In this document: in pieces, positions 9,802 through 32,569 of the stretch
How the letters are laid out: every line of letters begins with the position of its first letter
How positions within the stretch are numbered: position 1 is the first letter of the stretch
Assembly (NCBI RefSeq): GCF_007748115.1
Contig: NZ_CP036289.1
Span: 1,240,001-1,304,000, forward strand
From: Bremerella volcania
GTDB taxonomy: Bacteria > Planctomycetota > Planctomycetia > Pirellulales > Pirellulaceae
Direction: 5' to 3'
Length of the DNA: 64,000 nt
Translations under genes and position numbers: made by a program
Notes under the pieces: generated by a model
Database searches by the model: none
What the model saw: only the letters and a program-made list of their open reading frames with translations
What the model was told of the DNA's origin: nothing

Positions 9802-9929
9802 AGCCCCAACGGGGCGGCAGAATCATGAATGACACATAGGTTCTGTCGCCCTTTCAGGGCTTGTTTTTTTTTGGTCACCTACCAGGGGCTGACGCCCCTG
9901 GCTATTATCTGTCGCCCCGTTGGGGCTTG
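9802..9929. repeat. Repeat family B, orphan unit
   Basis: Contains GCCCCAACGGGGC, then CAGGGGCTGACGCCCCTG, then TATTATCTGTC and GCCCCGTTGGGGC. The same order of palindromes flanks the decayed transposase at 30.6-31.0 kb, but no transposase frame is present here, so this is a solitary copy. An additional short stem (GCCCTTTCAGGGC) and a T-run sit in the middle. Confidence 0.8.
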
Positions 9930-9934
9930 GAACG

Positions 9935-28726: not shown

Positions 28727-28729
28727 ACA

Positions 28730-28771
28730 ACGGTGCCGAAATCACGGTGCCTGAATCACGGTGCCTGAATC
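28730..28771. repeat. Tandem 14-bp repeat, three units
   Basis: Three units of ACGGTGCC[GT][AG]AATC in a row; the second and third are identical. It begins 4 bp past the gatC stop. A 14-bp period is not coding. The rest of the 274-bp gap to gatA shows nothing clear. Confidence 0.75.
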
Positions 28772-29000
28772 ATGACCCTCGATATCGGTGTGCACCTCGG
28801 TGCTGCGTCTGATCGAATCGGTCACCTTCTCGTTTGGTAATCGCTCCAACTTCTCTGCTGGATTGCCCCTTACGACGGCTAGTCAACTACGGCGAATTCC
28901 GCCATCATAGGCATTGAATTTAGTCAACTTGTACATAATTCAATGACGATCTAATTCGGCTTGTCCGCACCACTGACGGAAAGAAAAGGCAAAACGCACG

Positions 29001-30539
29001 ATGGCTTTGTACGAAGCGTCCGCCACCCAGTTGTTGTCTCAGCTTGAATCAGGCGAAGTCACCTCGGTCGAGGTCACCCAGGCCTGTCTCGATCGAATCC
29101 GCGAGCATGATGGCGCCGTGGGGGCGTTTCTGAAGGTGATGGACGAGAAGGCGCTGGCCAAAGCTGCCGAGGTCGATCGCAAGCGGAAAGCGGGCGAAGA
29201 TCTGGGCCTCTTGGCGGGAGTGCCGGTCGCTGTGAAGGACCTGCTGTGTACCGAAGGGGAAGTCACTACGTGTGCTTCCAAGATGCTCGAGAACTTCGTC
29301 CCGCCGTACAGCAGCACGGTGATCAAGAAGCTGGAAGCGGCCGACGCCGTCATCGTGGGCAAGACCAACATGGACGAGTTCGCCATGGGTGGTTCGACCG
29401 AGAACTCGGCCCTCGGCAAGACACGCAATCCTTGGAACACCGACCTGGTCCCAGGCGGCTCCTCGGGCGGTGCGGCTGCTTGCCTGGCAGCCCAGATGGT
29501 GCCCCTTTCGATCGGTACCGACACGGGTGGTTCGATTCGCCAGCCTGCTTCGTTCTGCGGGGTCGTCGGGCTGAAACCAACCTACGGCCGTGTTAGTCGT
29601 TTTGGTCTCATCGCGTTTGCCAGCAGCCTGGATCAGATTGGCCCGATGGCGCGCACGGCGGAAGACACGGCGCTCTTCCTGGAAGCGATGGCCGGTCACG
29701 ATCCGCAAGATTCGACTTCGGCCAACGTTGCCTGTCCGCTGTTCAGCAAGACGGTCGACCAGCCGCTGGAAGGTTTGCGGATTGGCCTGGTGAAAGAACA
29801 CTTCGGCGAAGGTCTCGACAGTGAAGTCGAGAAGTCCGTGCGAGAGGCCGTAGCCGTTTACGAGAAACTCGGCGCAAAGGTCGTCGACATTTCGTTGCCG
29901 CATAACAAGTACGGCATCGCGACCTACTACATCATTGCCCCGAGTGAGGCATCCAGTAACCTGGCCCGCTTCGATGGTGCCCACTACGGCCATCGCTGTG
30001 ATGAAGCCACGATGCTTGAGGAGCTACAGAAGGAAAAAGAAGCCTTCGAAGCCGCCGGCGATGAACTGGGGTTGAAGCGGATGGATACGCCGCTGATTCG
30101 CATGTATCGTCAGAGCCGGGCCGAAGGGTTCGGTCCCGAAGTGAAGCGGCGAATCATGCTCGGTACCTACACGCTCAGTGCCGGGTACTACGATGCGTTC
30201 TACCTCAAGGCATTGAAGGTTCGTCGTTTAATTCGCGAAGACTACGACAAGGCATTCAAGGCCGTCGACGTGATCGTTGGTCCGACCGCCCCGAACCCAG
30301 CGTTCGCCGCCGGCTCGAAGACCAATGATCCGCTGGCCATGTACCTGGAAGACTTGTACACGGTGACCGCGAACCTGGCTGGCATCCCGGCCATTTCGAT
30401 CCCGTGCGGAATGACCAGCGGCGGCCTCCCGGTCGGTCTGCACATGCAGGCCCCGGCCTTGGAAGAAGACCGCCTATTGCGAGCCGCCTACATGTTCCAA
30501 AAAGAAACCGCCTGGCACGCGAAGACACCGAGTTTGTAA
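29001..30539 (+). CDS. gatA: Asp/Glu-tRNA amidotransferase subunit A
   Basis: 512 aa amidase-signature protein that releases ammonia from glutamine for GatB. Catalytic triad by position: K79 in VAVKDL, S154 in [10 protein letters not shown]178 in [11 protein letters not shown], matching the classical GatA numbering. Cytoplasmic; forms the GatCAB complex with gatC and gatB. Start ATG 29001. The expected next gene gatB starts 557 bp later because a decayed transposase element intervenes. Confidence 0.97.
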
Positions 30540-30590: not shown

Positions 30591-30679
30591 AAGCCCCGAA
30601 GGGGCGTCAGATAATAGCCAGGGGCGTAAGCCCCTGGAAAGGTGACAAAACAAACGAAAGCCCCAACGGGGCGACAGAA
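30591..30679. repeat. Repeat family B, left arm
   Basis: Palindrome GCCCCGAAGGGGC, TCAGATAATAGC, CAGGGGCGTAAGCCCCTG and GCCCCAACGGGGC with CGACAG. It is the mirror of the right arm at 30890-30977. Confidence 0.85.
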
Positions 30680-30697
30680 ACGTGGAGAGGTAGCGCA

Positions 30698-30883
30698 GTG
30701 CCACAATCATTCGCAAGTCTCTACGTTCATTTGATTTTTAGCACGAAGAATCGCGAATCGTGGATTGACGACCAGTGGTCACCGAGATTGGACCGAGATT
30801 GGACACGATCATTCCAAGAGGAATTCGTCGCGTTCCTTACCAAGCACAACGTTGAATTTGATCCTAGGTACGTGTTCGATTAG
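30698..30883 (+). pseudogene. Internally deleted REP-associated (IS200-like) transposase
   Basis: 61 codons from GTG 30698. The first ~31 residues, MPQSFASLYVHLIFSTKNRE, match the N-terminus of RAYT/Y1 transposases; the last ~25, SFQEEFVAFLTKHNVEFDPRY, match their C-terminus (full-length members run about 150 residues). Roughly 85-90 residues with the HUH motif and the catalytic Tyr are missing, so the product should be inactive. The frame is still open across the join, where an 11-bp unit ACCGAGATTGG is repeated twice (30780-30801), a likely deletion scar. It could be a fixed short peptide, but decay is simpler. Confidence 0.85.
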
Positions 30884-30889
30884 GAATGA

Positions 30890-30977
30890 TTCTGCCGCCC
30901 CGTTGGGGCTTGCGAATCGACATGCTACATACCAGGGGCTTACGCCCCTGGCTATTATCTGTCGTCCCTTCGGGACT
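30890..30977. repeat. Repeat family B, right arm
   Basis: GCCCCGTTGGGGC, then CAGGGGCTTACGCCCCTG, GCTATTATCTGTC and GTCCCTTCGGGAC. Mirror of the left arm at 30591-30679 with small differences in the outer stem. Confidence 0.85.
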
Positions 30978-31096: not shown

Positions 31097-32569
31097 ATGA
31101 GCGACGATTACGAGATCATTATCGGGCTGGAAGTTCACGTGCAGTTGGCGACCAAGACGAAGTTGTTTTGCCGCTGTAGTACGAAGTTTGGGGCTTCGCC
31201 CAATACGCAGACTTGTCCCGTTTGTCTGGGGATGCCAGGTTCGCTTCCGGTGATGAACCGCGAGGCGTTTCAGCTGGGGTTGAAGACGGCCTGTGCGCTG
31301 AATCTGAACGTCCCTCGCTTCACCAAGTGGGACCGTAAGAACTATTACTACCCCGACCTTCCCAAGGGATACCAGATCAGCCAGTTTGATCTGCCGATGT
31401 CGGAAGATGGTTACCTGTGGATCAGCGATCCGAAAGAACAGTTCGAGGCCAAGAAGGTCGGCATCATCCGCGCTCACCTGGAGGAAGATGCTGGCAAGTC
31501 GATGCACGACGAAGCCGCCGGTAAGGCCGATACGCGAATCGACCTGAACCGAACCGGCACGCCGCTGTTGGAGATCGTAAGCCAGCCGGACATGCGTTCG
31601 CCGCTGGAGGCGAAGGCCTACCTGAACGAGCTGAAGCTGATTCTGACCTACCTCGGCGTTTCTGACTGCAACATGCAGGAAGGAAGCCTTCGCGTCGATG
31701 CGAACGTCAACTTGCACATCAAGTCGGACGATCCGCACAAGATCGCGACGCCAATCGTCGAGATCAAGAATATGAACAGCTTCCGCGCCGTCGAGCGGGC
31801 CCTCGCTTACGAGGCAACCCGGCAATACGACGAATGGCAGGAAACGGGCAAGACGATCAAGGATGCCCCCAAGACCACCCGTGGTTGGGACGATCAGGCC
31901 CAGGTCACGCGGCCGCAGCGCGAGAAGGAAGATTCGAGTGACTATCGCTACTTCCCTGATCCTGACCTCGCCCCGGTGGTTACCACCGAGGAAGAAGTCG
32001 AAGCCATCCAGCAGGCGCTGTGCGAGTTGCCGATGGCCATTCGCGAGCGGCTTCACGACGGCTACGGCATTCCGGCCTACGATGCCGACGTGATCGTCAA
32101 TCAGGGGATCGTGGCCGTGAAGTACTTCGAGGACCTGGCCCTCAAGACCGGCGACGCCAAGATGTCCAGCAACTGGGTCCAGCAGGACGTGCTGCGAGTG
32201 CTGAAGGAACGTGATCTCGAGTTCGATCAATTCCCGATCACGGTCGAGCGGCTCTCAGGCTTGCTGAAGGCGATCATGAACAAAGAGATCGACACGACCC
32301 GGGCCAAGGACGTCTTTACCCAGATGCTCGACAGCGACAAAGACGCTCAAGCAATCATGAAGGAAATGGGCATCGAGAAGGTCGACGATTCGGAACTCGA
32401 CAACCTCGTCAAGGAAATCCTGGAAGCCAATCCCAAGGCGGTCGAAGACCTGAAGAACGGCGTGCAGAAGGCGGTCGGCGCGCTCATCGGTCAGGCCAAA
32501 AAGAAGAACCCCAACATCGACCCCGGCACCTTCCGTGCGAAGTGCCTGGAGTTGGTGAAGCATATGTAG
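31097..32569 (+). CDS. gatB: Asp/Glu-tRNA amidotransferase subunit B
   Basis: 490 aa; transfers ammonia to misacylated tRNA after kinase activation. IIGLEVHVQLATKTKLFCRC start, zinc-binding CRC...CPVCLGMPG, GRTGTPLLEIVS-type DLNRTGTPLLEIVSQPD and EIKNMNSFRAVERAL; C-terminal YqeY-like helical tail VDDSELDNLVKEILE. Cytoplasmic; partner of gatC and gatA upstream. Start ATG 31097. No promoter is visible in the element, so read-through or a promoter inside it must serve expression. Confidence 0.97.
   Translation: MSDDYEIIIGLEVHVQLATKTKLFCRCSTKFGASPNTQTCPVCLGMPGSLPVMNREAFQLGLKTACALNLNVPRFTKWDRKNYYYPDLPKGYQISQFDLPMSEDGYLWISDPKEQFEAKKVGIIRAHLEEDAGKSMHDEAAGKADTRIDLNRTGTPLLEIVSQPDMRSPLEAKAYLNELKLILTYLGVSDCNMQEGSLRVDANVNLHIKSDDPHKIATPIVEIKNMNSFRAVERALAYEATRQYDEWQETGKTIKDAPKTTRGWDDQAQVTRPQREKEDSSDYRYFPDPDLAPVVTTEEEVEAIQQALCELPMAIRERLHDGYGIPAYDADVIVNQGIVAVKYFEDLALKTGDAKMSSNWVQQDVLRVLKERDLEFDQFPITVERLSGLLKAIMNKEIDTTRAKDVFTQMLDSDKDAQAIMKEMGIEKVDDSELDNLVKEILEANPKAVEDLKNGVQKAVGALIGQAKKKNPNIDPGTFRAKCLELVKHM

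Follow-up and report, generated by a model that had tools for sequence, protein, structure and literature searches.

A probable RAYT-like Y1 transposase remnant between inverted REP units in the gatA-gatB spacer of Bremerella volcania

The window analysed here is a stretch of 64,000 nucleotides from the 6.5-Mb genome of Bremerella volcania (G000; G003, G004 and similar labels denote the other genomes compared). It contains the genes gatC, gatA and gatB, whose identities were confirmed with NCBIfam models. The gatA gene (29001..30539, plus strand; TIGR00132, 613 bits) and the gatB gene (31097..32569, plus strand; GatB models, up to 570 bits) are open reading frames separated by 557 nt, or 560 nt with the stop codon counted. 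Between them, 3' of gatA and 5' of gatB, lies an element made of two REP units around a short frame. The left REP unit (30592..30679, plus strand) and its inverted copy, the right REP unit (30890..30977, minus strand), are each 88 nt long, with a central hairpin between two GCCCC-type hairpins, one outer and one inner. The three hairpins of the left unit are the outer GCCCC/GGGGC hairpin, the REP hairpin at 30618-30637 and the inner hairpin at 30660-30672; the REP hairpin of the right unit lies at 30932-30951. The central REP hairpin reads CCAGGGGC-NNNN-GCCCCTGG and is preceded by an ATAG foot. The outer arms (30592-30637 and 30932-30977, 46 nt) are 93% complementary and the inner arms (30655-30679 and 30890-30914, 25 nt) 92% complementary, both in inverted orientation, which agrees with an earlier note on this DNA that described inverted palindromes on both sides of the frame. 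The frame itself (30698..30883, plus strand) comprises 61 codons from a GTG start, with GGAGAGG upstream, to a TAG stop, and is open throughout, as that note had also stated. As for a promoter role, one weak promoter-like site was found in the element, on the minus strand, against 0.5 expected; as for a terminator role, three terminator-like hairpins were found against 0.8 expected, all of them the REP hairpins themselves.

The closest relative of the remnant frame is a gene of 150 amino acids in G003. The kept N-terminal part (30698..30790, plus strand) corresponds to residues 1-31 of the intact protein with 87% identity, and the kept C-terminal part (30803..30880, plus strand) to residues 125-150 with 85% identity. 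The 93 residues 32-124 are lost and four non-homologous residues stand at the join, giving a net loss of 89 residues relative to the G003 protein; the frame had been described as a fusion of the two termini of a transposase with about 85-90 residues missing. The deletion junction (30783..30804, plus strand), read from the sequence, carries an 11-nt tandem repeat, CGAGATTGGAC in two copies. The HIH motif (residues 55-57) and Tyr115 of protein P0001 both fall within the deleted 32-124, and the absence of the HUH and Tyr residues from the frame, also part of the earlier description, is thereby borne out. In an alignment with the structure 2xm3, Tyr115 of P0001 stands opposite chain residue 132, a tyrosine which we take to be catalytic. 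Because the HUH motif and the catalytic-type tyrosine are absent, the remnant peptide would be unable to cut DNA, judging by its sequence. Against the Pfam model Y1_Tnp (PF01797) the remnant reaches 18.5 bits (E 0.0023), below the cut-off of 23, and its homology to the Y1 transposases is seen in the match of its two ends to the intact relative. The start codon is GTG in the remnant and ATG in the G003 and G004 genes.

Comparison of the region with the whole genome gave at least 82 matches (best 40 of 48 candidates scored), nearly all of them to the two REP units. With up to two mismatches, AGCCAGGGGCNNNNGCCCCTGG was matched 35 times forward and 35 times in reverse, mostly the same hairpins seen on both strands, against 0 and 1 matches for the backward-read control; 32 hairpins match exactly. 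The palindromes called family B in the earlier note are therefore found elsewhere in the genome far above the control, and the inverted units flanking the window element are repeated across the genome. The foot of the REP hairpin is ATAG in 27 and GTAG in 3 of 30 hairpins fetched. The three REPINs found at 605308, 2421954 and 5438779 agree with one another at 187-192 of 195 positions, so they have spread recently. The interior of the window element is single-copy in the genome, which rules out a multi-copy deletion derivative; spread by plasmids was likewise ruled out, with no match among 72,556 plasmid records. Elsewhere in the window, at 9802-9932, there is a REPIN with one end missing, and its end together with the adjoining bases is common to C1:336955 and C1:2862477, as if the end-lacking form had itself spread.

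One full-length RAYT-like gene was found in the search of the G000 genome that had been proposed as a check. It is the sole Y1_Tnp match at E ≤0.001, a gene of 150 residues at C1:4360691-4361143 (104.8 bits), located between the DnaK and ClpB genes (NCBIfam, partial frames) and surrounded by the same inverted units. This intact gene and the G003 gatA-gatB gene score 77.7 and 62.7 bits against the IS200/IS605 model NF033573 (NCBIfam; cut-off 55). Against the REP-associated model NF047646 they score 24.7 and 20.9 bits and do not reach the cut-off of 80, and because of this the element is called RAYT-like and is not filed in the NF047646 family. The RAYT label rests on the REP context, namely ATAG/GTAG-footed hairpins inverted around a single-copy Y1 gene; so much of the earlier RAYT claim stands, whereas the REP-associated NCBIfam model stays far under its cut-off. 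In the four genus genomes looked at (G000, G005, G002 and G004), the dnaK-clpB spacer contains a Y1 element. The G004 gene there belongs to another lineage than those of G000, G002 and G005; its REPs are of a GTAG subtype, and its frame contains one TGA. GTAG-subtype REPINs like those around this G004 gene also occur in G000 (C1:439620-439830 and C1:3580159-3580304); no gene of the G004 dnaK-clpB lineage was found in G000, and these REPINs are possibly orphaned.

The same spacer was compared among relatives. A GatA search matched all 40 genomes, G000 included and G033 only through a distant amidase, and 30 loci were fetched. The gatA-gatB distance is 2-166 nt in 25 of these 30 loci, an element is present in three, and no gatB lies within reach in two. 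The gene order had been described as normally tight, and without an insert this applies to gatA-gatB; it does not apply to gatC-gatA, where the gap (28727-29000 in the window) is 247-311 nt in all nine genus genomes. Many relatives outside the genus have a shorter gatC-gatA gap. With the stop codon counted, the genus gatA-gatB spacers measure 891 nt in G003, 871 nt in G004, 560 nt in G000, and 66-166 nt in G005, G002, G001, G008, G007 and G006. Outside the genus, 19 of the 21 loci have a spacer of 2-150 nt, and in the other two gatB is beyond reach. Full-length transposase genes with inverted REP units occupy the gatA-gatB spacer in two of the nine genus genomes, G003 (locus L052) and G004 (L050); the G003 sequence is that of WGNR01000009.1 (MAG bacterium isolate RI_54), with equal coordinates and 100% identity. 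A full-length gene at the same spacer in relatives marks the window frame as a pseudogene; the flanks immediately outside the element are unalignable between G000, G003 and G004, and the exact insertion points are not matched. These full-length copies in two relatives are decisive for reading the window element as a decayed REP-flanked Y1 transposase of RAYT-like kind, to which a probability of about 0.92 is given, and the earlier interpretation as a decayed transposase is supported on the same ground.

Traces of the element were also detected in short spacers. The last 48 nt of the G005 spacer match the right unit with a score of 52, and 28 nt of the G002 spacer match it with a score of 41; neither score was reached in 1000 dinucleotide shuffles. 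At these two sites a degenerate right-end REP is read as all that is left of the element. Because half units occur alone elsewhere, it is conceivable that a lone REP may have arrived there independently. In G006 there is only a possible trace (15 nt of the left unit, 2/1000 shuffles, 12 comparisons made), and the REP traces at gatA-gatB are not significant in G001 (23/1000 shuffles), G007 and G008. Matches to the 88-nt unit number at least 45 in G002 and at least 41 in G000 (best 40 of 42 candidates scored in each), 28 in G004, 17 in G003 (a genome 68% complete), 14 in G008, 13 in G005, 7 in G001, 5 in G007 and 0 in G006, counts that lean towards similar REPs because the query came from G000. 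In G001 and G006, with their 7 and 0 REP matches, the search for a comparable Y1 gene found none, whereas G007 has one and yet only five matches.

Other partial copies exist in more distant genomes. Matches to the 61-aa query occur in at least 117 of the 241 family genomes (E ≤0.01) and in at least 103 of the 396 order genomes (E ≤0.001), and most of the matches listed are ends of longer frames. Nine places were fetched, picked for short frames or for matches spanning the join. In G126 (contig C292), residues 1-24 are fused to the part that begins at residue 116, and a TAG stands four residues short of the original end. In G292 (C118), from another family of the order, positions 740-916 of the fetched locus encode on the minus strand a 59-residue fusion of residues 1-40 with about 132 onward, which has an ATG start, is open and is flanked by inverted arms of 65 nt (78%). 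The N- and C-terminal parts lie in different frames in G105 (C206). Only C-terminal parts remain in G126 (C83), G059 and G144, and only an N-terminal part in G273; G181 was rejected as a fusion across the join, its gene being full-length. Within the genus, G004 (C5, 68600-69700; element at about 282-592 within it) keeps only 24 codons, those at the start of the gene, enclosed by inverted REP units, and a relic in G008 (C1:4683837-4684027) keeps the last 29 residues followed by the right REP unit. The N-C fusions with differing joins in more distant genomes indicate that internal deletion of such genes is recurrent.

The age of the deletion was estimated from the kept codons. Among the 57 codons shared with the G003 gene, 23 differ silently and 8 change the amino acid, the start codon included (dN 0.08-0.09). 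With the terminal branch taken as half the G000-G002 gatA dS, neutrality over the whole branch predicts 36.5-38.6 amino-acid changes in the remnant; the changed codons contain 11 nucleotide differences, counted over both lineages and without the start codon (P <1e-6). Even with all changes placed on the terminal branch, about half of it at most could be neutral; the weak points of this test are a dS near saturation, the 57 codons and the use of gatA as a stand-in for the neutral rate. The 23 silent against 8 changed codons therefore suggest a young deletion or, less likely, a constrained peptide, and the codon pattern fits both.

Whether the copies at gatA-gatB descend from one insertion was considered from the REP units and the proteins. 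The left unit of G000 scores 100 and 97.8 bits against the units of the G003 element and 96.9 bits against the left unit of G004; the other REPs of G000 reach at most 92.4 bits with it, and the right unit of G004 reaches 79.7 bits. Its best non-self match in the nine genus genomes is the left unit at gatA-gatB of G003 (87%). In a protein tree of 27 of the 46 extracted sequences plus the remnant, the remnant and the gatA-gatB proteins of G003 and G004 group with the protein of G007 (support 82/89), whose gene is on contig C5 with gatA on C6. Silent divergence between the remnant and G003 is 1.14 by YN00 (gatA, 1.25) and 2.0 by NG86 (gatA, 0.96), so it fits that of gatA by the former and is twice as high by the latter. 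The species tree unites G000, G002, G005 and G001 (100/100), and it counts against a single insertion, otherwise the best explanation, that the gene is absent from G002, G005 and G001, the three closest relatives; vertical descent needs several losses for this reason. Repeated independent insertions into a favoured spacer, with G000 showing the decay of its own copy, are a doubtful but real alternative. The presence of the element at gatA-gatB does not track the species tree, the clpB-dnaK spacer holds two gene lineages in different species, and identity between the gatA-gatB proteins of G003 and G004 is just 63%, so that a second insertion in G004 is possible. However, the gatA-gatB REP units of G000, G003 and G004 (left) are closer to one another than to the other REPs of G000, and remnants are found at the site in G005 and G002.

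It is much less probable that the fused 61-residue peptide is itself an expressed and selected small gene, acting for example as a relative of the intact transposase that binds REPs or poisons dimers. Such a gene would account for the open frame with its GTG start and upstream GGAGAGG, for the rejection of whole-branch neutrality, and for the other in-frame fusions, that of G292 being open with an ATG start and that of G126 carrying a stop near its end. However, the joins differ among the fusions, the fused query itself favours in-frame finds and an out-of-frame fusion was also found (G105); moreover, the silent bias is equally expected from a full gene selected until recently, the residues at the join are non-homologous, and the G003 and G004 genes start with ATG. 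The same short form was not found among the matches listed for the 241 family and 396 order genomes. The earlier note had named a conserved short protein with no longer relatives as the case against decay; what is seen is other joins in other lineages, with longer relatives common. Least credible of all is an assembly or sequencing artefact hiding a full-length locus: inverted repeats around the gene and a tandem repeat at the join would be suitable ground for one, but the genome is a single contig with 99.49% completeness, the breakpoints lie within the gene and not in the REP units, and the kept codons show normal divergence from G003.

The decayed-transposase reading suggests the following history. 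The gene would have settled between gatA and gatB before the lineages of G000 and G003 parted, and the full gene would then have been kept by purifying selection, as the codon pattern supports. The 93 central codons, whose deletion is directly seen, would have been lost recently in the G000 lineage, perhaps by slippage or end-joining at the 11-nt tandem repeat. The leftover REP units could remain recognisable in trans to the single intact relative that G000 carries. The sister species G005 and G002 would show a later stage of the site, at which nothing of the element but a single degenerate REP is left. A whole element of this type would work like a RAYT.

The distance between convergent REP hairpins falls in a series. 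Eleven convergent pairs occur among the 32 exact hairpins of G000: the intact gene with 584 nt, the window element with 316 nt and nine ordinary REPINs with 108-125 nt; in the G004 C5 element the hairpins are about 215 nt apart. The window element could be taken as a step from a REP-flanked transposase towards a REPIN, through stepwise internal deletion with ends recognised in trans, although this is considered unlikely. An origin of this sort, from REPs flanking an ancestral element, is proposed for REPINs in the available part of PMC3116915. A deletion series towards a REPIN is seldom observed. Thanks to the partly deleted copies, including one that lies between REPs, the passage from transposase element to REPIN can be tested in a phylum that has rarely served for such work.

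The kind of decay described here is already known, and transposase pseudogenes of this sort have been published. Based on the accessible portions of the sources, RAYT genes inactivated by nonsense mutations, frameshifts or deletions are marked as pseudogenes, and there is a model of how their cognate REPs decay (PMC3686654); E. coli strains have lost REPtrons through deletion, and Planctomycetes hold GTAG and CGTC repeats (PMC3733652). The corresponding excerpts describe REPtrons and how transfer and loss have made their distribution patchy (PMC6006769), and characterise RAYTs as domesticated transposases that are inherited vertically and present in a single copy (PMC8049555). None of six decay and phylum terms was found in the part of the PMC2817692 text at hand, and no description of this gatA-gatB locus in the portions available of the literature on RAYTs, REPINs and domesticated bacterial transposases, Planctomycetes included. 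The finding is thus ordinary in kind, with some use as a deletion series.

Compared with known systems, the element resembles the RAYT/TnpA-REP genes and REPtrons in having a Y1 frame between inverted REP hairpins, an ATAG/GTAG foot and one intact gene in the genome; it differs from them in that the window gene is internally deleted and its intact relatives miss NF047646. The intact relatives pass the cut-off of the IS200/IS605 family (NF033573, PF01797), whereas the G000 gene is not multi-copy, with one full-length gene and many copies of the REP units only. Two convergent inverted REP units are shared with the REPINs, as far as these are covered in the same part of PMC3116915. However, 210 nt of former gene separate the units of the window element, against 1, 16, 16, 18, 18, 18 and 18 nt in seven pairs of full units in G000; with this spacing and no second copy of its interior in the genome, it falls outside the REPIN definition. 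A parallel in mode of decay is found in the pseudogenised RAYTs of Pseudomonas and Stenotrophomonas, in which, according to the sections of PMC3686654 available, a deletion kills the gene and the cognate REPs stay. The loss of such genes is rarely caught in the act, and the present case differs from those sections in that the intact, the deleted and the nearly erased states are found at one syntenic spacer within a single genus.
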